This document shows, piece by piece, positions 4,309-29,033 of a DNA stretch of 64,000 nucleotides. Numbering within the stretch: position 1 is the stretch's first letter; each line of letters opens with the position of its first letter. Source of the stretch: Pseudoscleropodium purum (lineage: Eukaryota; Streptophyta; Bryopsida; Hypnales; Brachytheciaceae); the NCBI GenBank assembly GCA_963969395.1, contig OZ017797.1, positions 2,418,001-2,482,000 of the forward strand. The letters are read 5' to 3'. The notes below the pieces were generated by a model. That model ran no database searches, was not told where the DNA came from, and saw nothing but the letters and a program-made list of their open reading frames with translations. A program made the position numbers and the translations under genes.

Positions 4309-7204
4309 CTAATCATCTTCATGCATGGTTGCATAACCACTATCTCCAACAATGTAGGCATCTATAGATTGCTGGATTATGCTAATTTGTGCCTTCGGAA
4401 TTTTGATTCGAGGATCAGAAGTCCCTGCTCTCACACGTGGCTTCCAAGCAGTCATTATACAATCAATGTGCGTCCAACTTGGAGAAATAGCTTTATCCTC
4501 GCACTATAAATTTCCTTGCTTTAACTTCCACCCAGCATATGTTTCCTCGTCAATATGTTGAAAAGATGTAGGCGTCCAATACTGCAGTTGGATAGAATTT
4601 ATATGTCTAGGATCCGGAGTAGGATTCGTGATTGCTCGAGCAAGCCAAAATGGACGAAGATCACCATCAGCAAGCCGTACTGCAACAAAATAACCCGCAA
4701 AGACGTCACGACCAACACGAAATGAAAGTTGTAGACGGTCACGCCTACGACCAACGAAAGGAGCATCTTCAGCAAATTCCTCACGCACTGTGCCATCATC
4801 TAGATATTGGTCTTCTTCCTCATTCGAAATCATTGAATTTGGCCAGAATCCATCCCGTAAACTCTCTCGCTAGTCAAGCGGATCTTCTAGAGCGCTTCTA
4901 ACACCTTGCCAATATTTCATCACCGGCTCATTTTTCCTTCGAAACTCTCTAGACAAATCTTGATTAGCCATTGTTCCCCAAAATGCAATATATCCATCTA
5001 ACCCCTTATACACTTCATCAAAACAACGCATTAGTTGTGGAGCTAGAGGTGCAGGACTCCCCCTTGGAACTCTAGGGCGCCCATCAGAAGTCTCCTTCCA
5101 CAAACGAATTCCACCACCTTCCTTTGGCAACCAATCGCTATCTGTACAGAGAATTTTGTATTGCATCAAAGGCCATCCATTGGTATCTTTGTAAAATTTA
5201 AATTGTTGAGCTTGTGAATGGCCTTGAAGAGAATCATCGCCTGTATGTAGGTACCCCTCCACAAATCCTTTAAAATTTGGAACTTCTTCAATGAGATGAG
5301 GAATCACAGGTTGTGTTTCACAATCCATGAAGGATTTCATCAACCTTGGAAGTGTTGGATAGTCATTTGTCTTCAACTTTGTGCTCCAACGACCAAATAG
5401 AGCATCAATGTCTTCGTGAGTGTGCCCGACAATGAGGAAATTAATGTAAATTTCACGAAAAATGGCTTTGAATATAAGAAGAGAGCAAAAGGCAAAAACC
5501 CAACGATTCTTGTTGTCACCAGAAGCATTGTCAAGTTGAAGAGTCAATGTTGGAGGTAGACATTGAGGGTGGACTACTTCTTCAGGGCGAGGAGGTAAAG
5601 ATTCTTCACAAATCTCAAAACCCTCTAGCACCGCTTTCGACAATTCATGAATTGGATCATTTGTGGCAAACAACTCACGCGATGAGAACTTTGGTTCAGC
5701 TTCCAAGTCTCGTAATAATTTTGCAATGGATCCTACAGTATGATTAGAATCTGTTGGAAAGATGTCCAACCCATAGTGCGCATATCGCACATCTCCATAA
5801 CCATGAGCAATCATACTTGTAACAGCAATGAGCATCTTCATAAATGAATCAATGGCCTTGCTTTTATGAGAAAAATGAGGAGAAGCAATCTTTGAATGAT
5901 CCATCTTGTCATGGATGATGGTCAGAACCTTATTAGGGTGCTTCTTAGACATCATGTGATTTGCATAGTACAACTCTCTATGTGCTTGTTGTCCGGCAAG
6001 ATGCATCTTCAGCTTCTTTGTCCATACTTCTTGAGCCTGCGGGCGTGGAGTACAAGCACTCTTCAATTGTTTCAATCTATCGCACTCACCACAACGTACA
6101 AAACTATCACCACAAGCTTTTGGAGCATATTCTGGAAATGATGAACTTCGAATGTTACTCAAACCACTGGTTGATATATGTTGCAATTGGAATGCTGAAT
6201 TCACAATATTAATCTCTGGCAAAATGTCCCTCCAACGAAAAGCAGATGGCAAAATCATAGATGGAACTTTCTCCCCTGACGCAAGTGTACGAGATTTATG
6301 TGGCATGTGGTCAGCACTGTTTTCAAGAAGCAATCAAAGTGTAGCTGTTCCTTGCAAGGTATGTGATCGGGGCTTCTTCAACCCAAGATTACCGTGATGC
6401 TCTGCTTTCTCATCATTCTTTGACTTCTCCTTGTATCTATAGAAGGTAGCCCTTGAAACTCCATGGATTGTGCACCATGCAGTAGGACAAACTTCATGAG
6501 CAGCCAATGTTATCATATCCTTCCCATTTGCATCATAGTGCATTTGCTTGTGCACGTCAAGAAGACGCGATTTTCGCCAATATACTCCACCCTCTACATG
6601 AATCTGAGACCGAATGGCCTGAATTTGCCCACGTGGAAATGGTTGCAAGCAATTCTTTGCACAACAAGTCTTGGAAGACACTTCTGCAATTGCTTGAGGG
6701 GTGAGGAGGGCTTCTTTCTTTGGAAGGCTTCTCGGCTCTTGCCTCTCCCGAGCGCTCTCATAGGTACGAACTCCAACCCGAACTCGCCGCCTTGATGCAT
6801 TAACTGGAGCTTTAAAGATAGAGGTTTGATCATGGTCATACAAGCTGGCTCCATTCAAATATACCCTTGAAATTGGCCAAGAACGCATTGACCACATCCA
6901 AGAAGATGGAACTTCAATCTCACACAAAGATTCTACAATTTGTATTGCGACTCTATCGTCACCAAGAGGCTTTCCATCCATGTCAATGACGAGGTCGGCG
7001 TCTACGCTATGACAAATTCCTTTGGCCACCTCCACCCTATATTCACTTTGAAGAATAACACACTTTGTATACCAAACAGTGCGAGGGATACCCTCGCATG
7101 GTGCAACTCCAGGAGGCAATACTAGCACTGACACTGCGAACTCATTTGGTACAGAAGTGCCCATTCTGCACAACAATGAAGACAAATTAGATACAAGAAA
7201 AGAT

Positions 7205-7223
7205 TATCCTCGACTCGAGGATG
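7205..7223. repeat. 19-bp palindrome, site 1 (gene A intron)
   Basis: TATCCTCGACTCGAGGATG. Nine-base arms around a single central base, with one mismatch at the outer position. It lies 39 bases from the predicted acceptor of gene A intron 1. Confidence 0.95.
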
Positions 7224-7465
7224 TTTTTAAACACAAAACTCATAATATTCACTACATTCAGTGATTCAATTAATTAACAGAAGATATTGATTATTACACA
7301 TTTTCTATTACAAACAAAATAGAGTATTTGCTCTGTCAACAGAAGAACTTCACAGGACACAGTAAAATCTGTTCGGGAGCATCAAGACTTCTGATGCACA
7401 CTACAATTATGTGCGTACCTCACTGTTAGTAATAAAGACAATTGCTTATTTATGAATAATAAAAC

Positions 7466-7484
7466 TACCCTCGACTCGAGGATA
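7466..7484. repeat. 19-bp palindrome, site 2 (gene A intron)
   Basis: TACCCTCGACTCGAGGATA. One change from the consensus (T to C in the left arm). Confidence 0.95.
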
Positions 7485-7589
7485 TTTGTCATTTGTCTGA
7501 ACATTTTTAGAAATCAGAAATTTCATCTTTCCCCTTCTCCACGATAACTATGATTTCCTAATATTTCTAACGTGTCAAATACATACAAT

Positions 7590-7608
7590 TACCCTCGAGT
7601 CGAGGATA
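7590..7608. repeat. 19-bp palindrome, site 3 (gene A intron)
   Basis: TACCCTCGAGTCGAGGATA. The central base is G, the only site with G at that position. Confidence 0.95.
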
Positions 7609-7727
7609 ATGGGACAAGGAGATTCGTAAATTCTAACTTTTTAACTTTTTAAAGGGAGTTTCGTAATTTCTTCACCTAATGATAGTCACTACGCATCCAC
7701 ACGGACGTGGGTACAATCAACTAATGA

Positions 7728-7746
7728 TATCCTCGAATCGAGGATA
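7728..7746. repeat. 19-bp palindrome, site 4 (gene A intron)
   Basis: TATCCTCGAATCGAGGATA. Perfect arms, central A. Confidence 0.95.
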
Positions 7747-7826
7747 CTTGCAATACAATCAAGTTTGTAAACCTCATTACTCTTTTCTTCATATTTCATA
7801 TTCAAATACCTTTTATTGATTCAGAC

Positions 7827-7845
7827 TATCCTCGACTCGAGGATA
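7827..7845. repeat. 19-bp palindrome, site 5 (gene A intron)
   Basis: TATCCTCGACTCGAGGATA. Perfect consensus copy. Confidence 0.95.
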
Positions 7846-7885
7846 GACTTTGACGGATACTTCCAATGCACCGTATTCATTTCAT

Positions 7886-7904
7886 TATCCTCGACTCGAG
7901 GTTA
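7886..7904. repeat. 19-bp palindrome, site 6 (gene A intron)
   Basis: TATCCTCGACTCGAGGTTA. One mismatch in the right arm. It sits 11 bases inside the intron from the predicted gene A donor at 7915. Confidence 0.95.
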
Positions 7905-7977
7905 GGTGATTTCACTGAACAGGTTCATCATGTTCCGTAAAAAGCGGAGGTTTGATCTCTTCATCAAGTCCGTCCAT

Positions 7978-8920
7978 TCACAAAAGTGGGATCAAACCAG
8001 AATACTAGCTACGGAGCGATCACCAAGTGCAGAAATCATACGATCAACCGACTACAAAGATACAAAAAATACAATGCAATCACTCATATCCGAAATCAAG
8101 AAACCAAATGACTATAACAATTACAACGAATACAAAGCACTGAAGAATGAGATAAACAAAAAGAAACCAAACCTATAACTACGAGACAGAATGTGTAGAA
8201 TGAAAGAACAACAGAATGATGATCACTTGTCTCAGGGGAAAAGAACATGGTGCATCAGCCTTACATAAATTCCGAATTGTTTGAACTCCACAGCCTCTAC
8301 GGAACCCACGAAACTTTGAACAATGGCGAAAACAAGGTCGCTGCTGAAAGTAAAATCCGCAGTCTGCACAACGAAATTCCACTACTTCTGAACAATCCTA
8401 CACTCCGAATCTAACAACAAAAATGCGCGCGATCAAACTTCCACACATCAAAAATGCATACCAGAGTTCCAATGCACGAATTCAAAGAAGAGTAGCAAAA
8501 TAATGAAAGAGAAAACATCTTCTCAGCAAGGGAGAAGGCGCGGAGAGTGAGTAGCGGGAAAAAATAGGCGCGAACGTCAATTGCCATGTTTAGGACGGCA
8601 AGCACTTTCGATTGATGCCAAAGTTCAGGAACGAGATAGCTGTAAAACTATTTGTCAACTAAAATAAGGCCTGCAACATCATGGCCAAAAATCCGCTGTG
8701 GCTACAGTTTCGATATTCTACATTCTAAAAAGGGTGTGTCTGCATTAAACGTCCGAGGTTAACGTCTACAAAAAGAAGTGCAAAGTCAATGAGCAGACGC
8801 ACATGCTAGTTTTCCGCCACGCCACCCGCCATCCGCTTGGCCACGTGGCAGTTTTGCTCGGGTTTTCAAGGTTCAGATGGGGCTAGCGGTTTAGGGTTTA
8901 GGGTTTAGGGTTTTGACAAT
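7978..8920 (-). promoter_or_regulatory. Putative leader and promoter of gene A (G-box and telobox)
   Basis: This lies directly upstream of gene A exon 1 and is richer in GC than its surroundings at 8500-8900. It holds a palindromic G-box (CCACGTGG, 8841-8848) and three tandem TTTAGGG units (8890-8910). Both motifs recur together in the region upstream of gene B. No protein gene is supported here; the short open frames are not conserved-looking. Promoter function is inferred. Confidence 0.45.
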
Positions 8921-8950
8921 TTATATTATCTCTACAACCTATAGCTTTTC

Positions 8951-9088
8951 TTTTATATTCACTTGTATTATCGGAAATTAGTTCAAAAAGAGGGGTTTCT
9001 TCATGGTCATTGTTGTTTCTTTGATTTTCACTTGTAATATTGTAAATTAATCCCAAAGGCTTGGTTTTTTGATGGTCATTGTTGTTTT
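8951..9088. repeat. Tandem duplication of a roughly 70-bp unit
   Basis: Two adjacent, imperfect copies, each running from a TTCACTTGTA-like start to ATGGTCATTGTTGTT. It lies in a spacer and gives a repetitive minus-strand open frame that I do not regard as a gene. Confidence 0.7.
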
Positions 9089-9444
9089 GTGTTGACTCTT
9101 TATCATTGTTTTTGTTAGGAGGGTTCTTGTTTTGATTGCTCTCTGATTTGTCATGCTTTTCAGGCTTCATCCCTTTTTGATTCATTTTCTTTTTCTTTAA
9201 ACGATTATTTCCTATCATGAGAATATAGGACTCACAAAACAAATAGAATAATAATGAGCAAAATGTATATGAAATTTTGAAAATAATTATCTATATGATT
9301 ACAAAAATATTCATTCAATTAAACAAAAATATATATTATAATGCTAAATGATAATGACACTTTTTATGCATCATTTTTGAACTTATAAGAATTTAAAAAT
9401 CTAGAAAAGCTAAAGTAAAAGTGAAAATGTTGAAAAACAAAAGT

Positions 9445-12400
9445 TGTCGCAGCACAGGGCAGGTCAATTCCCCATTATACTCACAAAAATCGCCCTAGAG
9501 TATAACTAAGTGACTCTAAAGATCGAACCCACGAGATCCTGTGAAGTATCTAGCTTTATTAAGCAGTTAAGCTCAGTCAGTATCCCAATCTTACTTTCCG
9601 GTCCTAGATCTAGAACTAGAAATACCACCACACCGGATAACTATAGACCGGATTACTCCTTCTTCCGGTCCTACTAACTATCCGGTCCGTCAAAATACCT
9701 AAATCCCAGGATCTCACAACTTCCGATCCTAGAAATCCGTCCTAACCAATCCGGTCCGGATGGTCATCCTGTACTCGTAATCCTATTCGGTTTGGTTTTG
9801 CCTCTGTTTCACCATCAGAGGGGTCGCCGCTTAATTTTGAGAGTGGTAGGCCCACCACTCCTTCCGTGACTTATAGTGGCTGAAGACCCACTGTCCTACT
9901 TCCTAAACTCCTAAGCTAATCCGGATCCGGTTTGGTCCTTCACAACAACCCAGATAGCAATCCGGGTTGTAGGTCACACGAAGACCCCACACTCGACCCT
10001 CTCATACTACAACGACCTTAATGCTACTTCCGATCCGTGCGAAGACAGGTGGTTACAAGTGCACCCGTCCGTTCCAACATCAACTAAAGTTCTTCCGTTA
10101 CCCATACGGGTGGTGAGACCTCACAGGAGATCGGACACTCAACCGGATTTTCCACCCGGGAGTTCTAGCGCAGCTAAGGAATCCCTCCCTACCCGCCTAG
10201 CCTAACAACGGCTTTCTCACCCGGAATCTCAAACTCTAGACGTGCTGAGGAACTAAGTTCACTCCCAACTCTTCGGTACCTACTCACATGCACCTAGGAT
10301 CGGAAAATAAACACCAAGGGGAGAAATCACTCGCAAACCATCCCGTACTATCCTAACTCCACATCATACAATCCTGTCGCGCTGGAGAGAGACACACAAT
10401 GAAGAGAATAGAAAAGTACAAGAAGTTTGCAAAATGAACAACTCCCAGTTCCCATCGCAGGAACCGATTTATATACAAAGGGTCAAAACCCTAAAAGCAC
10501 AAAAAGGAGCGGAAAACCCGTAGGGGTCCGCCGCCATCCTAATCTAACTTCCGGTCTAACCTAATACTGTTGAGCCGGATCCGGATCCGGATCCGCTCCT
10601 ACTCCTAATTGAAATTAAAATCCTATCTACCCTACAATTCGAGATCCTATCGTCGGGCTTCCGACCTCCGGGACTAGCTCCTCGAAGACTTCACTCAAAT
10701 TCCGGACCCGTTCCCCCTCAGCAGGATTCGGTCCGGGTGGAGACTCCAGGTCGATGGTGATATCCGGTCTCGTGCCCGGAGTCCCAGTCCGTGCAAACTT
10801 CTTGGACTCAGGAGTCCAATCCTTCCTATCTTTCTGAATGGTCGCGTCCGGAAAGAGATCCGGTAGAGAGATGTCCGAAAGATGAATCCCTTTGTTGCAC
10901 GTCGCTCCAGTCAGCTTCCGGCTGCTCTCCTCGATCCGGTCCACTGCCTTCCGCCCCTCCACCATTGCCGTCTCCACCTGCTCAGCGAAGTCCGCGAGAA
11001 TCCGGACCATCCGGGAACCGGATAGTTTCTTCTCTTCGTGGATCTTCTCGTCGAAGAGCTTCGCTTTGGCAGCGGCCGTTCCGGTCTCTCCGAGGACCGC
11101 CTTGATTTGCTCGGCTATCTTCCGAGTCTCTTCCGCCATCTCCCGGGCGGCCGTCACGTCTTCCTGATAGGCAAAAAGAGTTGCCTTCAGGTTATCCACC
11201 TCCTCCTGCAACCGGCGGATCTCTGCTTCCTGCTTCCGGGTCTCTTCCGGATTCGTGATGCACTCCGCCACTTGTTCCGCCAATTTGCTGTTCGGTGCCG
11301 CACCCACCAACTTGCCGATTGCCGCAAGCGTCTTGTGCTTGACCTCCCAATCCGCCCTGATGTTGCAGAGGACGTTGATCAGACCGTTGAACGGATCTTG
11401 CATATCCGGATCTCCCCCGGAATTGGTCTTCTCGGCTTCCGGTTTCTCCTCCGGGGCCGGTTTGTCTTGACCAGGAGGCGTCCCGCGCTTGTGTGGAGGC
11501 GTCAGCTTCTGTCGCTTGATCGGCGACATCGGCTCCTCCTCTTCCTCGCTGGACTCCCGTTCTGACCCGGAATCGGATTCCGCCTCGTCATCCGTCTCCG
11601 ACTCCCCATACTTCAGGAGCACTTCCTGCGTCTTCCACGCCCTCTCCTCCATATCGGTGAGGACTTGGTTCTCCCGATAGAGGTGGAAGAGGTAAGGGCA
11701 CACTGGAGTGGCCCTTTTCTTCCCAACCCTACTAACAAGTTGGGCCACGAGATCGGAAATGATCCGTGCCCAATCCACTTTCCGGGTACCACTGAGGGCA
11801 CCGAAAATGGTGTTGCCGAGGGTGATCGTCACCCTGGTCGGCTTTTCCGGGTGAAGAACCGGAACCAGGAATTGCAAGAGCCGACGGTGTCGGTCATCCA
11901 AGCAATCCTCGACCGCGTATCCGTCCTTCGGGTTGACGGCTCCCTTAAACTTCCTTCGGACAAACTCATCCTTCCGGCTCGCCATTCCCAAACCTCCTGC
12001 CCGGAAACCGTAAACCGCTCTCCACATCCCCTCGTTCCAGCTGACGGGAGTTCCTCTCACGGTGTTGTCAAACTGGTTGGACAACTTTCCGAGGAGCTCC
12101 TTGACCATTCTCTCCTCCCTAAAACCCCAGGGTTTCTCGGCAAACCCTACGCAACCCATGGATTTGAGATCGTCCATGAGTTGAGACTTTTCCGGCTCTG
12201 TGGAGGGAATAACCGGAATGACTTTCCGGAGCTTCACCTCACCTCCAGAGGGACTCGCTTGTCTCGACCTACGTAGCGGAGGCATTCCCACTCACATCTA
12301 CCTCACTCTCTTCTAGCCGCACGTCTCGTTCCTCACTTCCTCTCTCCGATCTCAACCGGAATCAAAACGAACAGAACACAAACGCACAGACGCACAAACG

Positions 12401-12729
12401 ACAAAAACTCAACCGCGCGCTCAAGGTCGAGTTTCTAAAAGGGGGTGCAACAGTGAAAGCTCCTCCTTTTATAGTCCCTGGACCCTTTCCGGTTTGTCAT
12501 CATGAATCCGGATTACCATCATGAATCCGGTCCTAGACCTAATCCGTGTTGCATTCCGTTTCCGTCGTTAGTTACTCCTAACCGGATTAGATCCAAGAAG
12601 CCCACTACTTCACGTTCCGTGCTAATTCTGAGTTTTCCTTCCCCACCTAATCGGATCCGGTTAGCTAATGACTAGTTTCCGTTCCTATTTGGGTGTATAC
12701 TAAGAAAATCAAAATTCTAAGCTGCGACA
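9445..12729 (-). mobile_element. Copy 1: TGTCGCAGC-ended element with 5-bp target duplication and gag-like gene
   Basis: The element begins TGTCGCAGC and ends GCTGCGACA, a perfect 9-bp terminal inverted repeat. It is flanked on both sides by AAAGT (9440-9444 and 12730-12734), a 5-bp target duplication. It is 3,285 bp, clearly GC-richer than its surroundings, with many CCGGAT motifs and a CCGGATCCGGATCC-type run near 10575-10595. It carries one long gene on the minus strand. TG...CA ends plus a 5-bp duplication fit an LTR retrotransposon, for example a solo long LTR or gag-only non-autonomous form, but I see no second LTR, no primer-binding site and no polymerase. A cut-and-paste element is the alternative. 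Two close relatives lie at 24.5-28.3 kb. Confidence 0.85.
10627..12291 (-). CDS. Gag-like / plant transposon protein of copy 1
   Basis: 554 codons, ATG at 12291, stop at 10627. The N-terminal 200 residues form a compact domain with CVGFAEKPWGF, a W-rich WNEGMWRAVYGF segment and CLDDRHRRLLQFLVPVLHPEKP. This resembles the gag-like or 'putative plant transposon protein' domain seen in plant retroelements; I recognise the style, not a named family. A strongly acidic Asp/Glu/Ser stretch follows (about 230-260), then a basic Pro-rich linker with KRQKLTPPHKRGTPP, then a coiled coil of heptad-like Glu/Lys/Leu segments (about 335-440), and a C-terminal tail ending GSPTIGSRIVG. There are no RT, RNase H, integrase or DDE motifs. 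The frame is intact, and the same protein recurs in truncated form downstream, so this is the reference copy in the window. Confidence 0.75.
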   Translation of the reverse strand: MGMPPLRRSRQASPSGGEVKLRKVIPVIPSTEPEKSQLMDDLKSMGCVGFAEKPWGFREERMVKELLGKLSNQFDNTVRGTPVSWNEGMWRAVYGFRAGGLGMASRKDEFVRRKFKGAVNPKDGYAVEDCLDDRHRRLLQFLVPVLHPEKPTRVTITLGNTIFGALSGTRKVDWARIISDLVAQLVSRVGKKRATPVCPYLFHLYRENQVLTDMEERAWKTQEVLLKYGESETDDEAESDSGSERESSEEEEEPMSPIKRQKLTPPHKRGTPPGQDKPAPEEKPEAEKTNSGGDPDMQDPFNGLINVLCNIRADWEVKHKTLAAIGKLVGAAPNSKLAEQVAECITNPEETRKQEAEIRRLQEEVDNLKATLFAYQEDVTAAREMAEETRKIAEQIKAVLGETGTAAAKAKLFDEKIHEEKKLSGSRMVRILADFAEQVETAMVEGRKAVDRIEESSRKLTGATCNKGIHLSDISLPDLFPDATIQKDRKDWTPESKKFARTGTPGTRPDITIDLESPPGPNPAEGERVRNLSEVFEELVPEVGSPTIGSRIVG

Positions 12730-12734
12730 AAAGT

Positions 12735-14490
12735 TAAAATGTAGAAAGTAAACAATATGTTATAATGTAAATTATTACTATTTACTTTAGATAATTCAAT
12801 AATTAAAAATATGATTTTTGTCTTAAAAGGTATAAAAAAATTCTTAAGAAAATTATTGCAACATAAATAGGCAAGAATTTGGTTCTACTAGCTTGTATTG
12901 AAAATAGAGTGGAAATAAAATTTATTAGATTTTGTTTTCTTAACTTAAATGAAGATAAAATTAATAGATACTTTGAAAGTTACAATTCAGTTTCACCAAG
13001 TATCATATATTTTTTAGAGATGGAGACCATTAAGCATTAAGTGTCTAAAGTTGATTAGCGATCCTTGACCAAAAGATAACCTTATACACAATAGCATTTG
13101 AAATTGCTTTATTGTGAAGCAATTTAACAAAGTACTCATGTAGTATTGAAGAACATTCAATTATATATTTGTATGCAAAGTTCCAATAAGAACTAGAGGT
13201 GCAAAATGATGATTATTACAATTAAAATTGAATAAAATTGTCAAAATTAGATGTCCTAAGAGAAAAAAATTGGTATTTAAATCCAATTTTTTTTGTTTTT
13301 GCATGTCAATAATATATGAATTATTTTCAAGCACAATGGAATGCAAGCATAAATAAATTCAACTTATTACAAAGAATTTGTAAGGGTATAATCCATAAAT
13401 ATCCAAGTGGTTCTCCCTCCAAAATTATTTCTTGGACCCCTTAATTTCAAATAATATATAGTAAATTTTAGGAACTTTTACTAAGTAGATTGCAAGATGT
13501 CTGCATTTAAAATGAAGTAAATAAGTTTTTTAATTGGATTTTGAGCATATTTTGTGACTAGATTATTTGACTTTGAATCTTTTTTTTATTTAAAATTTTT
13601 GTACAATATACTTTGAATTACAAAAAATTTATGATGAAGATTTGAGTTGAAAGTCTAGAAAAAAAGTTCCAAAAAAATCGATGATTTTCATTCTATAAAG
13701 AATTGATAAATAGAACCATGTTCAAAATTCAAGGAAAGACTAAATTGGCAATAGCTTTTAAATGGAATTGAAGCACACTACTCCCCAATGGTAAGATTGT
13801 TCTAGCAAGCATATTTAATCTTGTGAATTTTTTTAATTTTTTAATTGTAAAAAATGAGTTCAAAAACAAATCTCATATGTTATTTCTTCAATTAATTTTT
13901 ATGATTGTAGCCTATAAAACAAAAACTCCACAACTTTCACATTACTAATCCAAATAGAATGAATCAAAGTTTTCCATATAGACAAAAATACTATCAATGA
14001 GAAAAATGAGAAAATTTTTTGTAGATATTTTTACTATATGATCTTCTACTTTTTGAGCTTATTGTGGTATAATTTTTGTTCCTTGGCATTGATTGGAATA
14101 AAAATTTGATTATGTAAAAGCTATTATGTTTTCTAATCTGATTTAAGAAAAAGTTTCAAAAAATCATTTCAAACTTTAGATTACAATATTATGTGAGCCT
14201 ATCCAAAATTTATCTTGTCCCCCAAAGGGACTTTAGAAATAAGGACTACATTAGTAGACAGTCCAAATTTCCCAAATTGTGAAGATGTATTGTAATATGA
14301 AGTTTAGAATAATAATAGTTGATGATTAATCTCAAAATATAGTTGTGAAAAATTATTAATGAATCATATCCATGTGCTTAAATCAATTAGTTTATAAAGT
14401 GATACTTTTGAATAAAATTTGAGGCCATAAATTAGAAATTCTTTCTTAAATCAATTGTAGATTGAAAATTGGTGATTCTCTCTAAGGAAA
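12735..14490. other. AT-rich spacer without a supported gene
   Basis: The spacer between genes A and B continues here, strongly AT-rich with many short homopolymer runs. I see no coding segment, palindrome site or RNA gene. Confidence 0.6.
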
Positions 14491-14499
14491 AATTTATTG

Positions 14500-15260
14500 A
14501 AAGTTAAAATTATTCCACGTTAGCCATGTCTCTTGCTTCTCGTATAAGCATGTTGGAAACCAATGGTGAACAATCCAAAACATTCAAGTCATTATTAGAC
14601 CCTAGCAAGCAAAAGAAGGCATGCTAGATATGTAAATTTTTACTAGCAATTGCTTCAAGAATGATTGATTTCTTGCTAGACCTATCTCCAAAGTCTCCTT
14701 GCCAAGCAACATTACAATTTTTCCACTCATGATGCATGCAATCAAGCAATAGTTTGTTAATTGCTTCTCAAAATTTGCTCATATAGATTGATGCAAGTAT
14801 TGCCTTTCAAATTCTAGCCTACTTGCTAAGCTAAACCACTTAAAAGACTCCATTGTAGTACTCTTGCTAGTACTACAATATTCATTTGTTGCATTAGCAT
14901 AAAATCCATAACAAAGCATACCTATGGCCACTTTGATTTTCTGATGAAGGGATAATTTTGGTAAACTACATGCGTCCAATATTTTAACAAAGTAGCTATT
15001 TTGAAGACAAATCCTCTTCATGATAGTCAAGAGATATGTGTGTCACATTCAATAATGACTTCGTAGGAACTAGGACCATATATAAGAGATTCAAAGAAGT
15101 AGTTTGTCATCATTCTCTTGTGCATATCCACCTAGTCTCTACTAATATTTTGGGCTTTCCTAGGACAGGATCTATCTCTAACCCTCGTGGCACTCCTAAA
15201 CCTTCAATGTCTTATTTGCAACCCCATTATCCACCTCAAGTTCATCTCATGTTCTTCGTC
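14500..15260 (-). pseudogene. PIF/Harbinger-type transposase relic
   Basis: The minus strand reads KVAIGMLCYGFYANATNEY and STTMESFKWF, then further on DCMHHEWKNCNVAWQGDFGD, SIILEAIASKNLHI and HAFFCLLGSNNDLNVLD. These match the HARBI1/ALP1-like nuclease of PIF/Harbinger transposons, including the first catalytic Asp (in DCMHHEWKN) and the second (in GSNNDLNVLD). The frame is broken by a TAG at 14624-14626 at a position where the family has Trp, and by shifts near 14760 and upstream of 15030. No terminal repeats were found. It lies in the spacer between genes A and B and is older than the copy 1 insertion. Confidence 0.8.
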
Positions 15261-16570
15261 ATCTTCTAGGGTCTATTCTATAGCAACAAGAAGACACTCT
15301 CTTTATGCTTCCATCTTCATAAAATTCAACAAAACTAAAGAGAAAGGAAGTTCAAACAAGCACATACAATAGAAACTCTAGAAAAGAGCTCCCTATCTCA
15401 TAGCTCCTTTTGTTGCAAAGTGGAATCCAATTCCCTTTAATGTAGCATGCCAAAGTGGCCAAACAACATGGCCCACTTGGCCACATCTTTTTCTATATAA
15501 ATAATAGTTAAAAAAAATAGAGCATACTACAATGCCATCTTGTTGAAGAGTGGCAGGCCTACATCAACAATGTCAACACTATACAATTCCTTTGCTAAAT
15601 CACAATCCTTACAAAATACTGGCAATTCTCTTATATTTTTTGGTGTCACTTATACATAGTGATCTACAATCTCCTACTTTGAATAAAAATTGCTTAAAGA
15701 AATTCTTACATAGAGATTAAAACTCACTCTTAGCCACATTTGATTCTTGTTCCCAAAGTCTTCTCAAATCTTCAATTCCTACATAAATGGAAATAATTTT
15801 AGTGACTGAAATAGAGTGCATTCAAATGAAGGCTTTGATTTGTAGCATTGACAAATTTGAATGGAGATCTCTCTTTTTTATTATTGCCCTTGGTTGTTTG
15901 AAATTTCCTCAAATTTGACTCAACTTGAGTACAATGAAATTTTTGTAAAAATTACCTAAACAATATTATAAAATGTGATTTCTAAAAGAATTTCCTGATT
16001 ATTACTACAAATTTAACTTCCTACTAAGAATTTCCTGAACATTATATCAACTGAAATTTCCTAAAATCTTGGAGCATATTTGTTTTGAATGGTATATTTC
16101 TTTTCAATAAAAGTACACCCAATCCTCTTTATCATCACACTTGCTAATAATGCAATGTACTAATTTCATAGAATATTTTTCAAGGTGTCATATTTCTTAA
16201 GCTTTGGTTCATAGCACTAATCTTGGACAACCTTTATATGTCGCAGAATGAATATATGTAATGGTAATTTTTAGAGGTTTGGATCGGTGACATAATTGAA
16301 TTTTAAGTATTGCAAAGTGTTTACAATGGTGTCCAGTTACAATAGATAAAAAAGTTTGGAGAATTTAAAAAAATAGTAACTAAAACAATTAGGGCTTTCA
16401 ATTTCAAACTGAAATAACAAACTTATTTTAACAAGTTTTTTTAAACAATTAAGTGAAGTTGAAACTACTAATACATTTAATAATCTTCATTTTGTTAGAT
16501 TTTGTTCAGAATCAAGTTTTAGTTAGGTCAAAATCACATTTTAAGAACAATAATTCTAAATGCTAAAATA
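15261..16570. other. AT-rich spacer without a supported gene
   Basis: AT-rich, with no coding segment I recognise. The segment just after the Harbinger relic may hold more of its decayed 5' part. Confidence 0.5.
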
Positions 16571-16599
16571 CAGTATACAAGATGTCATTTGTTAGAACA

Positions 16600-16900
16600 A
16601 CCCTCCACCGCATAAATCAAAACAAACTATTATACTCCGTATCTCAATCTGACCCTGACGTGGCAGCACGGGCAGCTTCGGCGGCAGCGGCGCTAGGCAA
16701 ATGGTGGGCTTCCACGTGGCAGCACGGGCAGCTTCGTCGTCGGTGGCGCGGCGGCTTCTTCGACGGAGCTGGACGGGTTTAGGGTTTTTTGCAGCTTCCT
16801 GACTCCTGCATCTGCCGCTGCTGCCGCTACCACTTACGAAGTCGCGTGTTTGCACGCGCGGGACCTGCGAAGATTCGTTGGGAGGTGAAAAAATTTCTGG
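16600..16900 (+). promoter_or_regulatory. GC-rich putative promoter of gene B (direct repeat, G-box, telobox)
   Basis: An abrupt change from AT-rich spacer to CpG-rich DNA. A 23-bp direct repeat, starting ACGTGGCAGCACGGGCAGC, occurs at 16658-16680 and 16714-16736. The second copy completes a G-box (CCACGTGG, 16713-16720). A telobox TTTAGGG follows at 16778-16784. The same G-box and telobox pairing lies upstream of gene A. It is about 2 kb from the first gene B ATG, with splice-like signals between. Promoter function is inferred. Confidence 0.5.
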
Positions 16901-18325
16901 AGCGCTCTGGGAAGGCTCTCGGTGGAAGGTCGGATTGCGCCGGTCGGAGTTCAGGTTCGTGCATACTCCGACTTCATTGCGGTTTAGTGTTTTCTTGGAG
17001 GTGCGCTAGTGTGTGGGCGTTAGTGTGTGGGCATTAGTGGAGGGTTTTGGATGCATTGGTGTTTCATTTGAGGGACAGGCTCATAGTTAGAAACTGTTTC
17101 TGGCATCAATATGTACAATTACACCGCAATGATAGGGATAATTGGCAGTATAATTGCAAGTGTATTATGAACTCATAAAAAATGTGAGAAGTACTGGTAT
17201 CCAATTATTCTGGGAAGCAGTGGACATGGCGTTTCTGATACTGGGATTTTCCCATGTATATCTCTGAGTCTTCACTTGTGTGTGGTTACAAGTGCAAATG
17301 CAGGTGGGCTTTGTGAAATAGCTTCAAATAATTTCTACTTCACCTTCGAAATTTGTTATACACTGCTGAATAGATTGTGTCCCAACAGTTCCAGTCCAGG
17401 CTCACGTAGCAACTGTTTTAGACATGCATGTAGACTTACAACAGAGTCAATGAAAGGGAGGATTGGCAGTATAATCGTCAGGGTATTGTGAACTCATGAA
17501 AATTTGAAAAGAACTGGTATCCTATCCTTCACTGAAAAAAACATTGGATTAATCAGTCCTTTTGTTCTGAATCAATTTTGAAAATCTAAATTTTGAAATT
17601 GGGCTGTTCAGGGACAAAGGCTCACGGTCAAGGGAGAAGCTGGTGATCGTATTCCAAATCAATGAGATTTGTTGGATTTCCCATTTCGTGTTTCCTCCCT
17701 TGATTCAGTTTCGTTGGGTTTCGCGTTTCAGCTCACTGAGATTTGTGGGAAGACAGATGTGGGAAGACAAGTGCAGGAGGTCAAGTGTGGTAAGTTTGCT
17801 TCTGTGGCATGATCTGCATCGCAGTCCTTGTTCTCGTGTGTTCGAATTTTATGAGTTTTGGGAATCTCTTGCCACTTATCTTTGTAGTTGTTGTTTCATT
17901 GCTTGAGTTGCACGTGAAGTTGTAGAATTTGATGTTAGTTTTTTTTTATTGTGTATTTGCAGGTGTAAGTGTGATTTGCATTGATATTGCTTGGAAGAAT
18001 TCGAAGTTCTGTTTGGTAGTTGCGTGGGGAATTGCAATTGATTGCAGACAATTTGCGGTGGGTGCTTCAGCGATTCACATTGGTGTCAAACTTCTTTTGT
18101 TTTTGGTACGCAAGCTGCATCTTGATTCAGTTTTCATTTAATTTTGGTTCAATTTGTAGAGTGCTCATCCAACTAAGTGATGCTTTGCTTCCATTTGTAG
18201 AGTGCTAATGGTTTGGTTCAGTTTGTAGAGTGCTAATGCAATAAGAATAATACGCAAAAAGGCCTGTAGAGCTCTGATAAATTTTAGGGTTTTGGTCCCA
18301 GGATCGTCCCAGCTTCTTATTTACT
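16901..18325 (+). other. Probable untranslated, spliced leader region of gene B
   Basis: Moderate GC without a convincing reading frame. Splice-like signals include GTAAGTTTG near 17790 and TATTTGCAG|GTG near 17954-17964. The unit TTTGTAGAGTGCT(A/C)AT occurs three times at about 18153, 18194 and 18222. No protein is assigned. Confidence 0.35.
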
Positions 18326-18344
18326 TATCCTCGACTCGAGGATA
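18326..18344. repeat. 19-bp palindrome, site 7 (upstream of gene B)
   Basis: TATCCTCGACTCGAGGATA. Perfect consensus copy, 60 bp before site 8. Confidence 0.95.
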
Positions 18345-18385
18345 AATACCTTGAGACCAAAACTTCATCAAAAATTTTAATCGAT

Positions 18386-18404
18386 TATCCTCGACTCGAG
18401 GATA
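18386..18404. repeat. 19-bp palindrome, site 8 (upstream of gene B)
   Basis: TATCCTCGACTCGAGGATA. Perfect consensus copy. Confidence 0.95.
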
Positions 18405-18571
18405 TCCTAGAAGACCCCTTCTTCCAGGAATTAATGAAAAATCTCAAATAATAAATCTGGAAGATCAAATTACAGAATGGAATCATCTAATTCCACCACA
18501 TAATTCTGTGTAACGACATATCTAGAACACTAGAACACAAAACGAGCAAGAAGGAAATGACTAAAAACAAT

Positions 18572-18590
18572 TATCCTCGACTCGAGGATA
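18572..18590. repeat. 19-bp palindrome, site 9 (upstream of gene B)
   Basis: TATCCTCGACTCGAGGATA. Perfect consensus copy. Confidence 0.95.
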
Positions 18591-18747
18591 AAGAGGAGCT
18601 GTCAATAATGACCCCACACAAAATCTAGAAATAGAATTTTCTATTAAAAAATAAATTGACTACACCATGTCTATTGTATTTCTATCAATCTAGAATGTCT
18701 CTACTATATTCGTGAAGGGGAAAATCACTTAGATCGCTAAAAGGATG

Positions 18748-18766
18748 TATCCTCGAATCGAGGATG
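18748..18766. repeat. 19-bp palindrome, site 10 (upstream of gene B)
   Basis: TATCCTCGAATCGAGGATG. Central A, outer base changed on the right. Confidence 0.95.
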
Positions 18767-18846
18767 TCATGCCTGTAATTATCACACTCGACTCTAGTTA
18801 GTTCTAGATGTACCTAAGCCAGTATTCAGTACATAGCCATGAAAAA

Positions 18847-18865
18847 TAACCTCGATTCGAGGATA
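18847..18865. repeat. 19-bp palindrome, site 11 (upstream of gene B)
   Basis: TAACCTCGATTCGAGGATA. Central T and one left-arm change. It lies 46 bp before the first gene B ATG. TATGACAG and GGTCCCAG, two possible splice acceptors, lie between it and the coding text, so sites 7-11 may also be intronic. Confidence 0.93.
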
Positions 18866-20417
18866 AAAACAGATGTAATACATTAAGCTTATACCACGTC
18901 CTAAGTGCGTATGACAGGGTCCCAGAAAATGGAAGAAAACGACCAGACCTCTACATATGACTACTCCCACACGGAGCTCCTCATTGAACCCTTCCAGAAT
19001 CCTTTGGGACAAGTGCCATTCTTCGAGGAAATGGCTGAAAACTACAGGGAGCTGTAGAAGTTCAAAGACGTAGTCAATCAGTGGAACTTTGGGGTAAATC
19101 GACAAAAGAACTACGTCTTCCTCAGATACCAGCCAGAGGGAACAATCAGGTTCATGCCGTGGAACCTCAATGAGAAGGTAACTCTGATCGAGCAACACCG
19201 ATCAGATTATCTTGTAATCGTTCTTCAGGAAGTAGATGGAAGTGGTCACCCCCTCCCACACGTCCATTCAATTGTATGCAATGTTGGACTTGAGTTAGGG
19301 GGGTTCGATTTAGCAGAGTTATTATCATACCTCACAGGGACGCACTTAGACTTCTTGGCGGATGAGTTCGAAACCAAATTCTGGTCGTGGAATCATGTGT
19401 CCTCCACAGCCCACATCCGTCGAGTGGCTGCGATATTCCTTTCTCTTGATTGCTTTGCTCTGGAAACCTTCTCCAGAAGTCACCAGAAGCTTATAGGGAA
19501 ATCAACTGAACGCGCTCTTGCTAAAGAGAAATCTGGGGCACCACCTGGGAGCGGGAGCACGAGGGCACTACTTGGGAGTGGGAGCATGAGGGCACCACCT
19601 GGGAGTGGGAGCACGAGGGCACGACCTCGATCAGAAAACCAAAAGAGGAAGGCAGTAGAGTGTACAGAAGGCGATACAAATAGTAAGCGCAAAAAGTCTA
19701 ACCTAGTCGAAAAGACTCGAACAGCCGGGAGTTCAGGATCAATATTGACTGACCTCCCTGGTGCGGGGGAGCAGCCTGTACGAGAAAAGGAAGATCACGA
19801 GGAGTTTACGAAGTACCAGAAGGAGTTCTGGGATAACCATCAGAAGTGCTTTCTTTTTTATGGTAAAACTTTCGATATTTCCATTGAGAAATGCATTCTG
19901 GCGAAGGACACATACATCGTGAGGAAGCTGGAGCGGAACATGGTTGACGTTGTCAAGAAAAAGCTTGTGGAACTTGGAGACGCAAAAACTCAAAGGCAAA
20001 AGCTGTGCCTGACTCCTGTGGATGAAAATGGCAAACTCCTAAAGAGTGCCCCAAAATCGTGGGATGACATCAAGTCTGGAGAATTCATGATCATCAACGG
20101 GCAGCACAGTGTGATGGCCTCAAAAGAGCTTCAGATTAGAGGGTGTGGAGAGAAGCGACGAAAGGAGCTCCAGACATGGAACGCAAGTATTGTATGGGCT
20201 ACTGATCCCGTGAAGCTGACGAATATCTCCGAGTTCTACAATAAAACCAACCACATTAACCATGCCCAGCCGACCTAGGGAAATCAGATTATCAGCTTAC
20301 GCAACGTGTGGGTGGACTTAGGGAGACCCTGCCTCCTCTCAAACGAACCAGTGAATCGCAAGAACTCATCCGTAGCCAGTTTGACGCAGTATGCGGTATG
20401 TCAATTCCATCTCTGGC

Positions 20418-20436
20418 TATCCTCAAGTCGAGGGTA
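20418..20436. repeat. 19-bp palindrome, site 12 (gene B intron 1)
   Basis: TATCCTCAAGTCGAGGGTA. The most diverged copy. One CG has become CA. It is 22 bases inside the donor of the 209-bp intron 20396-20604. Confidence 0.88.
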
Positions 20437-20546
20437 ATGATCATATGCCTTTTATCATGTGTTTGATAGTTTTTAGAATTGTACAGAACTGTGAAGTAAG
20501 ACTTGGCTTAGAAGAAGTGACTTCGATTTCATCTCTGTCTCACACT

Positions 20547-20565
20547 CATCCTCGACTCGAGGATA
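20547..20565. repeat. 19-bp palindrome, site 13 (gene B intron 1)
   Basis: CATCCTCGACTCGAGGATA. It lies 39 bases before the acceptor of the same intron. Confidence 0.95.
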
Positions 20566-21978
20566 ATTCTTGTTGTCTAGTCTAAATTTACTTGCCTCAC
20601 ACAGTTCATGTATGCTATGCAGAAATTCACAACCTTGGTCCTGACACGATATCGAAACATCAATCCTGAGAAAGATGGGGCAACAATCAAGAGCACCACC
20701 GACGTGAAGAACGAGATAAAGATTATTACCCTATGTGATGAGATTTACGAACTCTGGGATGAATTTCTTGTAGGCTACTCCGAAGGTAGATTGATAGATC
20801 CCTTAACCAGACAAGAGTACAGGGCAGACAAGAAGTTTAACCCTAAATCATGTTCGCTAAAGAGGGAGTTCTTCAGGCATTGTGGCCATTTCACGGACAG
20901 AGATCTTAAGGATTTTGCTCTGCATTTGCTACACAAGACTCTGGAGCGGACACGGCCATACCCAAAGGTCTTAGTTAGTAAAACAAGAATTCTGATTGAA
21001 GACAATCAGAACGCTGCAGATTGGGTCGACCGTCGGAAGCGGAAGAGAGTGATTCACGAAGAATTGCTCGCTGTGAAGAAGACTCTAGTCTTCAGGGATG
21101 ACTCTGGAGACGTCGTCGACAAGACCTGGAAGCCGTGGAAACGGAGGCACCGGTTTTCAACAGCAACATGGAACTTCTTGCTTGCTACCACTCCAATCCC
21201 CTATTTCACAAAGCGGCTCACAAATGAAGGCAAACTAAAACGAGTAGAAGATTTCAGTGAGAAGTTTCCCGACCTTCTGCCCATGTTTCAGCGCTTCGTC
21301 AAACTCAAGTATCGTCTAAGGCAGCCATTTGGAGATGTCAACATTCGGGGATTTGAGAGAGTTGCCATGTCTGTGGTGGCGAATTCGTCATGGAAGTACA
21401 ATAACGGGTATCTGGGTTTTGGAATACTCGATCTCCGCAAGGCACCCAAACAAAAGGCTAGCAAGTCAAGTACTTTTGGCATACTTCTACCATTCCTGAA
21501 CTACCTGTCTACCCACTTGGATCCCAAGTTTGACACTCCCAGTGTCTGGCTCTGGATTGTTGGGGATTCTCTGGATATGGAGACTGTATCTAACTTCATT
21601 GCGGTTAAAATGCAAGATTACGACTCAAAGCTCTCTTGTTACATTCCGGGTAAGGTAGAGAGAATAAACAACATATCCAGCCGAGCAAGCGCGACTCAAG
21701 TGTACCTCATCTTTTTGTTCAAGAAGAATGACGCCAACGCTAAGCTCCTTGAAATCGGTGTGAAGGACGAGTATAGGACGCCGAAAGATATGGCGTACTA
21801 TGATGATTCCGCGAGAAACAATGAGGCGAAGTAGAGAATCTATCCATCGGAACTGAGGATGGAGTTCTATTTGGATATGCTGTCCACATTTGTGAGTCCG
21901 GGTGAGAATGTGTTGGGAATCTACACCGGATCCAAGTGCATGCTAGCTGCACAGGTAATAGCTCCGCTCAAGTGCATA

Positions 21979-21997
21979 TATCCTCGATTCGAGGATA
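21979..21997. repeat. 19-bp palindrome, site 14 (gene B intron 2)
   Basis: TATCCTCGATTCGAGGATA. Perfect arms, central T, 24 bases inside the donor of the 196-bp intron 21955-22150. Confidence 0.95.
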
Positions 21998-22056
21998 CTA
22001 TAAGCTTATGTTGATTTTTTTATGTTCTCCACTTTGTTTTTAGTGATAACTTATGT

Positions 22057-22075
22057 CATCCTCGACTCGAGGATG
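22057..22075. repeat. 19-bp palindrome, site 15 (gene B intron 2)
   Basis: CATCCTCGACTCGAGGATG. The two outer changes compensate (C and G), so all nine arm positions still pair. Confidence 0.95.
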
Positions 22076-23487
22076 ATCTGACGGAGATGATTCTAATTGA
22101 TGAAATCAGAGATACAAGAATGTACTGATTGCCATTCCTCTCTAATGCAGATGTACGGTGTATTCTTCTACGGTATTGACGACAGCGTCGTCTATAAGAG
22201 GGAGAGAGGAATGGCGAAGTTCGCTGACAGATTAGACATGAATGACTTTCTCCATTTGAATTCACCCTATGGGAATTACTTCGTTCAGCCGGCACTTCTG
22301 GCGGCTGCGGATCATGCGGCTGCATCCACATGTGAAGACGATGGCAGCTCGGATTCAGAGCACTCTCAAGAGGCAAGTGTAGACGAAGACAATCCTTCCA
22401 TCGACGAATTTGGGACAAACAGGTCACCTAGTTCGCTTGCTCGAGAGAATATGGAAGATGTGGACGTTGCGTAGGAGGATGTTGAAATTCACCTCCTAGA
22501 GGACGGCGGGCAAGAGATGCCACGAAATAGTAGTGTGCAAGCGCCGGCACAAGATGAAGGCCTGCAAATACTAGCGGAGGCTCATGAATGGGACTTGCAG
22601 CGTTTGGATGATCTTGCACTAGAGGCACAGAGGCAGGTAGTTTCTCGTGTGCGAGATGGAGAAACAGGCGATGAGGATCGTCGCACTCAGTGCTCTATGT
22701 CAATGGTTGGGTTGGCCACTGAGACTCCCGTTCTCATTCTCAATGACAGTGACGATGACACTGAGATCATCGAGAAGTCTGTTGTGAGACCAGAAGTTGG
22801 AGATTCTGCACGATTAGTCTCGCCGAGGTCAACGGAGATCGTTGCAAGTATCAAAGAGGAGTATGACTGGTGGGATAAAGAATTGGAGAAACAGAAAAGA
22901 AAGGACGAAGAGGATAGGGAGAAGGAGCGTAAGCTGAAAGAGGTCATGGATTATTCGGAGAGTCAGAAATGCGAGAATGAGGCATTGAGACTGAAATTAG
23001 AGGCACTTCAATCGCAAATATCCTCCCAGACAACTCAGTCGCAACCTGATCAGGGTTCACAGCAGCCATGTGGTGCAGAGGTAGTGGACGTTTGCACATC
23101 TCAGGATCCCAAGCTCCATAGAACTCCCCTCACTACGTTCAATTATCCTTGGCCCGAGGATAGATCACAAGATTCCACTGGAGAGGCTGCAGAAGTCAAT
23201 GTTAATAATTCTGTGGCTCAACATTTTGATGAAAGATCCTCTGATCAGCTGCAACTGAAGTTGTGCTCCTCAGCTGACAGTCCAACCACTACAACTGGGA
23301 AACCAAATCTTGTAGAGAAGGACAACAAGCAAGAATTTGAGAATATAGAGTCACAAGCAGTCACTGAGGAGGTAAAGAGGGTGAGGATGACCATCTAGGA
23401 TTTGACGAGGAAGACTTGCATTACTCGAATCCTTTGTTAGACGAGCAGCTCGTCGACTATGAGGGAGATGATGCTGCGGATGTGTAG

Positions 23488-24494
23488 TGTAGCTTTTACG
23501 TTTTTATAGAACTTTTTTGATTTTCTATGACATTTCCTATATTATTTATATATATTTTGAGTATTTAGTGTTAAAGAAGTCCAAAGTACACTAAAATATC
23601 CAAAAAGCAAAAAGATACTTTAGTAAGTAGCTACAAACTAATAGAAAATGGCAAAAGGGCAAAGAAAAAGTTAAAGAAAAAGAAAAAGGAGAAAGATAAA
23701 GAAAAAGCTGAGGTTAAAAGAAAAAGAAAATGCAAATTAGGGATTTGGAGGTGCAAGCAGGAACGTTGTGTCGGTCACGACGAGTTGCAACTTTTCCGAT
23801 CACCCCCGAATTTCTGATTTAATCCCTCCCTTCTCTCTCAATTTCTCTCTTCCCCCCATGCTGTGTAATTACCCTGCGCTGTTCTTGCGCTGTCTATTGT
23901 TTTTCGGTGCTGTTCATTGTTGTCAAAAGTGATGTAATTTTACATAATTTGTGCTAAGGAATAAAAGTGCTGTTTCAATTATGCTGTTTTGAAATTGTGA
24001 ATTGTGATTGTGTGCGTGTATGGATTTGAAGTTTTCAATCTCTAATGCCTCGCGTTGCAAGGAGTCTTAATTTGTGAGATTTGAGCGACTTCTGAGGGAT
24101 TGGCGGATTGAGAGAATTTGATTGTTAGAGCATTATTCAGAGATCGTGACAGCCTGCTTGCACATTGGATTACGAGCGCTGAAAAATTCCTTGTTGCACC
24201 GGCGGAGGAGACACTGGCTTGAGCGGGCTGAGACCCCGAGCGGAGGCGACGCCTGATTGGGTGGTGGAACGGAGGAGCAGAGTGACTCGGTGAGTTTGGA
24301 GCATGATTTCGGAGAGAAACAGGGAGACTGATAGGAAGAGAATCAAGGGCTGATCGACCAATTCGGCCAACAATCGAATTTCATTCGTCATTCTCGAAAT
24401 TGGAAGATCGGCTGTTCAGGATTGTGAGACTGTTTACAAGATTGCGAGATTGTTTGGTTGATCAAGCTGTTGTTGCAGGGAGTTGTATCACAGC
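23488..24494 (+). other. 3' flank of gene B and leader-like region of an unknown transcript
   Basis: It begins AT-rich, then a purine-rich GAAAAA-type low-complexity run (about 23640-23735), then a moderate-GC leader-like stretch with pyrimidine tracts (TTCTCTCTC..., about 23830-23860). TTGTTGCAG at about 24470-24478 is a good splice acceptor that would open the coding text resumed at 28309. No reading frame is supported before it. Confidence 0.4.
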
Positions 24495-28308: not shown

Positions 28309-29033
28309 CATTGACTTCTCCAAGGGAAATGTAGAAGAAGGTGTCGTGAACAGCCCTCCTGGAAGTCGAGGAGCAGTGAGGACCCCGCTTTGCTCCCCGT
28401 CTCCACTGAAGCGGGCACAATTGTCACCAAGTGATGTGGATTTGTGTTCACCAAACTCACGTAACCAGATTACCTTGAATAGAAAACTCTATACTCATAT
28501 TGAGGAAGGTGTTGAACCTTTTCGACTCGACAATAAAATTTCGACCAACAGTGCATCAACTCTTCACTAGTGAAGGTCAGCAACTTTATCACGGATACCA
28601 CGGCAGAGGGCAGAAATAAGATCACCCAGCGGAAATCATATAGTGCAAGTCAGATCCCTTGCTTTTGGGGGGTAAGCTCTTTATCTGAACAGTCTATTAG
28701 TGGCGGGTCTACACCATCAACAAGAAGTATATTTCAACGTAGGGTTCTAGGTGGAGTTTTTTCTCTTGGAAATAGACAAGCGTTCAAGCACAATGTCAAA
28801 AGATCGGGCCTTACACCGTCTCCGCCAGTTTCTAGATCTCTTTCAAATTTAGGGAATCCTCGAAGCAATTTAAAGCGAAAAGTGGATGGTAGCGATTCAC
28901 GCTCAATAGAGACAAGTAGCACGTTCAATATTAGAAGTATACCAACGGGGACCTCTCGATACGAAGATATTATGAGAGGCCGGGCAAAGATTCGTGCAGC
29001 AGAGGCAACAAACAACTCTCCAGAAACTTGAAC
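28309..29033 (+). pseudogene. Ser/Arg-rich coding fragment of an unknown gene, cut by copies 2 and 3
   Basis: From the element end, one frame reads IDFSKGNVEEGVVNSPPGSR and on to a TAG at 28568. The next frame (+2) continues with the same Ser/Pro/Arg-rich style to RYEDIMRGRAKIRAAEATNN and stops at 29031-29033. If copies 2 and 3 are set aside, the acceptor TTGTTGCAG at 24470-24478 opens SCITA directly in frame with IDFSKG, so the elements look inserted in an exon. I do not recognise the protein. It may be a third gene of the A/B element or a separate host gene. Confidence 0.45.

Follow-up and report, generated by a model that had tools for sequence, protein, structure and literature searches.

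The 64,000-nucleotide stretch of the moss Pseudoscleropodium purum analysed here in full (assembly GCA_963969395.1, contig OZ017797.1, positions 2,418,001 to 2,482,000; hereafter the window) holds a DNA transposon with two divergent genes, gene A, which encodes a DUF7869 protein, and gene B, previously undescribed; the non-coding parts of both genes carry many copies of a short palindrome. We propose that these palindromes are cis-acting recognition sites of a moss transposon family, and it is probable that a dimer encoded by the element, with the gene B product as the candidate, binds clade-specific versions of the site to control or protect the genes of its own element. Such a protein would occupy the sites as a symmetric dimer, recognise the consensus GANTC at their centre together with clade-specific flanking arms, act on the expression of its own element by self-activation or by anti-silencing, as VANC does, and ignore the sites of other clades.

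A scan of the window with TATCCTCGANTCGAGGATA at up to three mismatches returned 16 sites, where 100 dinucleotide shuffles yielded 0.02 on average and never more than 1. Fifteen of these, with 0-2 mismatches, are the copies that the initial annotation had listed, at the same positions. Six lie in one intron of gene A, directly before its coding exon; the leader of gene B holds five, and introns 1 and 2 of gene B hold two each, the splice borders of both genes being inferred from reading frames. The sixteenth (three mismatches, eight of nine arm positions paired) falls within a coding exon of gene B, and the earlier statement that exons are spared thus holds for the fifteen better sites and fails for this weak one. 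The sites, located by motif scan and given without strand, are as follows.

7205-7223: palindromic site 1
7466-7484: palindromic site 2
7590-7608: palindromic site 3
7728-7746: palindromic site 4
7827-7845: palindromic site 5
7886-7904: palindromic site 6
18326-18344: palindromic site 7, gene B leader
18386-18404: palindromic site 8, gene B leader
18572-18590: palindromic site 9, gene B leader
18748-18766: palindromic site 10, gene B leader
18847-18865: palindromic site 11, gene B leader
20418-20436: palindromic site 12, gene B intron 1, centre deviating from GANTC
20547-20565: palindromic site 13, gene B intron 1
21979-21997: palindromic site 14, gene B intron 2
22057-22075: palindromic site 15, gene B intron 2, paired outer change
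23144-23162: weak site 16 (three mismatches), gene B exon 3

The central base is free, as had been noticed from the letters alone, and all four bases are found there, with C in 10 of the 16 sites. Positions 2, 4, 5, 6, 12-16 and 18 are invariant in all 16, and the central GANTC is intact in 14, the exceptions being the sites at 20418 and 23144. The paired outer change previously reported for site 15 (22057) is present as described. Since the flanks of the window sites have little sequence in common, the repeat unit is the palindrome itself and no longer repeat.

The link to genes A and B extends to the genome, which was scanned as 313,191,705 bases in 52 contigs. At up to two mismatches, as the initial annotation had suggested scanning, the window palindrome (the TATCC type) occurs at 417 sites, against one for the reversed pattern, while TTCAGCGCGANTCGCGCTGAA and TTATCCTTGANTCAATGATAA, which were read from clade introns and then counted genome-wide, occur 523 and 753 times, against 0 for each control. 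The genome contains at least 101 matches to gene B exon 2 and at least 181 to DUF7869, from which 92 gene B places (same-locus pieces merged or omitted) and 150 gene A places served as references. Proximity was counted for 157 of the 1,693 sites (50 of the 417, 50 of the 523 and 57 exact sites of the 753), and for 148 of these listed places a listed gene A or B is no more than 20 kb away, a distance matched by 2.9% of random points placed on 8 contigs; tightening the limit to 5 kb leaves 132 of the 157 places and 0.8% of the random points. Of the nine exceptions, two likewise have a gene A nearby. For the TATCC type alone, 48 of the 50 listed places fall inside the 20-kb limit, against the same 2.9%, and the remaining two (L046, L047) also adjoin a DUF7869 gene. 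An even spread without a tie to either gene, which had been named as the outcome that would count against a role in the element, is therefore not seen among the listed sites, and their association with genes A and B supports the view that they serve the element and are not a spreading repeat. Measured against 31 gene B places of one clade, 49 of the 57 exact TTATCCTTGANTCAATGATAA sites are found no more than 1 kb from exon 2 of a clade-ii gene B and none inside one, with two at 1-20 kb and six beyond. Several listed clusters keep the spacing of the window (60, 186, 176 and 99 bases), and the 15 loci around the first listed sites contain gene A (95%), gene B exon 1 (in pieces, 80-96%) or a gene A of lower similarity (52-58%). 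Elsewhere in the genome there are copies of gene B whose exon 2 is open, and for 59 of the 92 listed gene B places a listed gene A lies no farther than 40 kb away. Contig C49 (12.7 Mb) bears many divergent, decayed gene B copies with many stops; our guess is that it represents a chromosome of a special kind, for example a sex chromosome.

At some loci the sites form arrays. At one clade-ii locus, the only one examined in this respect, an 86-bp unit is repeated 6.1 times in tandem upstream of gene B, with one site per unit. Similarly spaced clade-ii sites, in opposite orientations, are found at several listed loci, and on contig C1 three such clusters were placed by eye ~2 kb from a DUF7869 match. 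Two clade-ii clusters on this contig, C1:25469041-25469405 and C1:25491388-25491752, occur in both orientations with ~22 kb between them; a DUF7869 match (C1:25466440) is found ~2 kb from the first, and the second lies upstream of gene B, an arrangement that suggests arrays at both genes of one element.

An independent assembly contains related elements. The cyanobacterial metagenome bin AVDCRST_MAG81 (4.8 Mb) holds the moss-like transposon contigs L001, L016, L017 and L018, apparently as contamination. In this bin CTCGANTCGAG occurs 20 times, against 7 for the control; 18 of the 20 sites fall on four contigs (22.2 kb in total) with homologs of gene A or B, and the other two are barely palindromic outside the core. 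Three sites on L016 and two on L017 lie downstream of the gene B stop codon.

Comparison between clades shows that the arms vary around a common centre. Eighteen loci were pooled, namely 14 gene B exon 2 loci picked to cover the clades, the window and three contigs of the cyanobacterial bin, and palindromes with at least eight of nine arm positions paired were counted. The 15.3 kb of flank contain 30 GANTC-centred palindromes and 17 with other centres, and the 24.0 kb of exon 2 contain 0 and 5, respectively; the 30 are not independent, many loci being near-copies within a clade. At least one GANTC palindrome is present in 17 of the 18 loci, L069 having none at eight of nine. The arms are of the type TATCCTCGA in the window clade and L018, TATCCTTGA in clade ii (44-46%), TYAGCGCGA in clade iii (~31%), TCAGCTCGA in L016 and L017, TATCTTTGA in L070 and TTAGCTCGA upstream of the gene A homolog L001. 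Diverged clades have different palindromes at corresponding intron places, with the arms altered on both sides together.

When arm labels were mapped on a tree of 26 exon 2 proteins (21 rows labelled, five unlabelled), they required four changes, the minimum possible and a value as low as none of 200 shuffles gave; long branches make parts of this tree unsure, and near-copies favour the clustering of any label. Four rows (P0114, P0116, P0130 and P0134) were labelled through intron-derived tail peptides, since callers of open reading frames (ORFs) ran into introns and the tails of homologs consequently encode the site (370 tail residues scanned, tails under four residues dropped). The site is spelled by YPRLED in P0116, IVDSRI in P0117, YPRFEG in P0114, LARIEL in P0130 and P0134 and IIESRI in the gene A homolog P0003. 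Among 88,569 other residues, TATCC-type peptides occur 0 times in frames 1 and 2 and twice in frame 3, those of the TCAGC type 2 (frame 1), 0 and 1 times, and those of the TTAGC type twice in frame 1. Five-residue frame-3 peptides (SSSR and similar) were discarded as evidence given such background matches. LARIEL fits TTAGCTCGA better than TCAGCTCGA; for the tree, P0130 and P0134 nonetheless share the label of L016 and L017, which therefore stands for TYAGCTCGA.

The candidate binder, gene B, is divided into three exons.

18911-20395, plus strand: gene B exon 1, with a conserved INGQHSV block (reading frames)
20605-21954, plus strand: gene B exon 2, residues ~241-450 of which are predicted to adopt a fold like that of beta-class N6-adenine DNA methyltransferases, lacking the catalytic motif (structure prediction)
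22151-23490, plus strand: gene B exon 3, charged, of low complexity and decayed, with an approximate right end (reading frames)

The predicted fold of exon 2 matches N6-adenine methyltransferases including CcrM, MTA1 and the METTL3/METTL14 complexes, and the catalytic motif (D/N/S)PP(Y/F/W), its DPPY form included, is found in none of the 20 members of the gene B alignment, some of which are partial. CcrM is a dimer that recognises GANTC (PMC6787082). We propose gene B as the reader because its exon 2 is predicted to belong to this fold class, without catalysis, and because GANTC is the consensus centre of all moss site types. Unlike CcrM, gene B keeps neither the catalytic DPPY nor the DPFxGSG of the S-adenosylmethionine site, is split by introns and resides within a plant transposon, and the moss site measures 19-21 bp with clade-specific arms. 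It is quite conceivable, although we hold this narrower proposal only tentatively, that an inactive CcrM-like adenine methyltransferase has become a dimeric DNA reader, for which GANTC would be the core and the arms a changeable address through which each clade controls its own copies.

The full-length gene B protein found no relatives, probably because those in the database are single exons, and exon 2 alone as query found 26. There was no gene B match in the bins of L002, L010 and L012 with an alignment that did find a match in G001, and the viral collection contained neither the exact motif nor relatives of gene A, gene B exon 2 or gene B exon 1. Within exon 1, a 27-bp tandem repeat of 3.4 copies (19536-19627) encodes a stretch rich in Gly, Ser and Arg. 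The INGQHSV block of the same exon may resemble the P motif of ParB-like folds, a likeness that is not proven. Membership of exon 1 in the ParB group found no significant support, NCBIfam, Pfam and PHROGs giving no relevant match. Its structure model (predicted local distance difference test score 35) is too poor for meaningful Foldseek matches. In three hhalign comparisons with up to seven bacterial ParB proteins none was significant; the best (P 0.04) placed INGQHSV on the ParB block, and the other two gave P 0.27 at the same place and P 0.3 elsewhere. Fusions of ParB-like folds to N6_N4 methyltransferase domains in phages and to MT-A70 in archaea have been described in a survey whose available text contains neither 'moss' nor 'plant' (PMC12704722). 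As in ParB/parS systems, palindromic sites lie near the gene, and INGQHSV in exon 1 takes the place of the GxxR block of ParB; in contrast to them, gene B gives no significant sequence or fold match, and the arginine of GxxR is a serine. In the cyanobacterial bin, L042 carries a ParB-like protein whose C-terminal half resembles, by eye, a degraded DNA methyltransferase; as a possible bacterial counterpart of gene B it gave no match in profile comparison.

Several observations weigh against this reading of the sites and of gene B. The fold match is moderate (two Foldseek hits at E <= 0.001, with an identity of ~10% and a root-mean-square deviation of ~4 Å); the Pfam family N6_N4_Mtase scores below threshold on L017 exon 2 (E 0.026; 14.9 bits against a cut-off of 26.7) and matches none of the 20 alignment members. 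GANTC is a consensus and not absolute, as two of the 16 window sites and two L018 sites depart from it one-sidedly. The 17 non-GANTC flank palindromes comprise 11 that represent two single homologous places in two clades, with centres AC and GG, five that have the same look with a one-sided change of the centre, and one in L069. Clade-ii sites have one unpaired position. Arms of the type TATCCTCGA are not confined to one clade, being found in L018 and P0116 too, and because they require three changes on the tree they would be either ancestral or repeatedly arisen; the clade-wise arm types could be attributable to common descent alone. The window copy of the element is itself decayed, with in-frame stops in both genes, and the leaders of gene A carry sites too, so that gene A could be the binder. 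We nevertheless favour a sequence-specific dimer acting on DNA because the GANTC centre is common, the middle base is free, arm changes are paired, both genes carry many copies and exons are spared. Control or protection of the own element seems the most likely outcome because many of the sites lie in the leaders and introns of its genes. One further idea, that CpG survives through sites shielding the DNA from methylation, was unsupported, as the observed/expected ratio of CpG also varies with coding and promoter parts.

Binding by the gene A protein, a possible transposase, or by a TnpA-like accessory, with the sites assembling a transposition complex in the manner of CACTA subterminal repeats, is the alternative that survives best, and we consider it unlikely. 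It is consistent with the same sites being borne by the leaders of genes A and B, with the listed sites that have a listed gene A and no listed gene B within 20 kb (5/50, 14/50 and 3/57 in the three lists) and with the further clade-ii clusters that are separated from gene B by ~15-34 kb and have a DUF7869 match at ~2 kb (three C1 loci, by eye). However, no window site comes closer to a terminal repeat than 3.7 kb, the placement of all 15 sites in leaders and internal introns would be unexpected for transposase sites, and the GANTC centre fits the fold class predicted for gene B. In CACTA/EnSpm elements, TnpA, a protein of the transposon, binds a short motif that is repeated near the termini of the same element. 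Binding of this type is what is proposed for the moss element, but the moss motifs lie in leaders and introns, and instead of CACTA termini with a 3-bp duplication the moss arms begin A(A)GGYCATATTC and have a candidate 5-bp duplication (by eye).

Action at the RNA level is improbable. Hairpins or pairing between copies would here approximate splice sites or regulate the splicing of the element's introns, which accords with the location of all 15 sites in introns and leaders, often near inferred splice sites, and with the ability of any copy to pair with any other. Pairing alone would not fix the sequence, yet every type shares the GANTC centre and the arms vary from type to type; among the window sites, one-sided changes reveal no preference for G-U pairs (by eye), the 86-bp array at one locus lies upstream, and the sites of L016 and L017 follow the gene B stop codon. 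Slightly less credible again is a working or partner-dependent N6-methyladenine system, in which gene B would help an active adenine methyltransferase to mark GANTC as a tag of self and non-self. The predicted fold of exon 2 would suit it, and inactive partners occur in the MTA1 and METTL3/METTL14 complexes; on the other hand, all 20 alignment members lack the catalytic DPPY and no active partner gene was noticed within the window element. That the palindrome is a short self-spreading repeat merely surviving in non-coding parts can practically be dismissed, for although it is short, numerous and largely absent from exons, its flanks have no insertion signature, several element copies share the same spacing, the listed sites are almost limited to the neighbourhoods of genes A and B, and clades differ in arms at corresponding places.

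To our knowledge, sequence-specific self-recognition encoded by a transposon is known in plants mainly from VANC of Arabidopsis; the transposase of the VANDAL elements concerned is of the Mutator type. In the available part of the source text, VANDAL motifs are 8-9 bp long, form single-orientation arrays and lie in introns and in intergenic and terminal non-coding parts, often as tandem repeats, and the string 'palindrom' occurs 0 times (PMC5735166). Different VANC proteins have different motifs, and coevolution of protein and motif has been proposed (PMC5735166, PMC10398659). The moss family is similar in that a short motif is enriched in non-coding parts including introns, is found in tandem repeats at one clade-ii locus (86 bp x 6.1) and differs in version between related families or clades of the element. 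It differs in having DUF7869 as gene A in place of a Mutator-type transposase, in the palindromic form of its sites, where VANDAL motifs are not described as palindromes, and in its likely binder, which is predicted to have a dead adenine-methyltransferase fold and for which anti-silencing is only proposed. By analogy, we propose self-directed regulation or anti-silencing for a layout of this kind.

The element itself is delimited by an inverted repeat pair (32 bp, 87.5%) that encloses genes A and B, giving a length of ~26 kb that includes two blocks of another repeat family. No equally good pair was found in 200 shuffles, and the two 300-bp ends match each other with a BLAST E of 4e-8. A candidate 5-bp target duplication, TTTGA, is found at 3481-3485, where it overlaps or abuts the left arm, and at 29548-29552, after the right arm; the end base of the arm and the duplication were determined by eye. 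The corresponding features are listed below.

3485-3516, plus strand: left terminal inverted repeat arm, 32 bp, 87.5% complementary to 29516-29547
4310-7164, minus strand: gene A coding exon (DUF7869; PF25273, E 1e-43), decayed, with three in-frame stops and a left border approximated from homolog P0001
7165-7912, minus strand: gene A leader intron with six palindromes, borders from the frame and the start of homolog P0001
29516-29547, minus strand: right terminal inverted repeat arm, pairing with 3485-3516

Gene A shares 78% identity with P0001 over 100% of the query. For this gene 111 homologs were reported, with 7996 candidates scored, and the rows that bear organism names come from two mosses, Ceratodon and Physcomitrium, which points to a moss host. 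Solved structures, searched by profile with gene A, gave no match, the MULE transposase domain is absent among the nine window pieces scanned, and a literature text search found no mention of DUF7869. Judged on titles and the openings of abstracts, no literature on a comparable moss transposon or palindrome system was found. On L017, the two sites downstream of gene B lie upstream of a NIF-type phosphatase frame that adjoins this gene (1365-2219, minus strand; PF03031, E 2e-14) and that could represent an additional, third gene in elements of this clade; a likeness of window 28318-29031 to an L017 frame was not confirmed by BLAST. The insertions within the window element, at 9455-12725 and 24497-28308, belong to one repeat family with 8-bp ends GTCGCAGC/GCTGCGAC (by eye); the former holds a 554-amino-acid ORF without a Pfam family, and the latter block includes inverted and partial copies. 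A short telomere-like TTTAGGG run lies upstream of gene A at 8888-8913.

If the proposed recognition is correct, a protein-DNA code would have diversified several times inside one plant genome. The moss family combines a VANC-like layout with a different protein and a dyad-symmetric site, of which several versions coexist in one genome, and the co-change of a mobile element and its target motif thereby becomes testable in a single organism. Should gene B be the binder, an inactive DNA methyltransferase would have been reused to read the recognition core of its own class.

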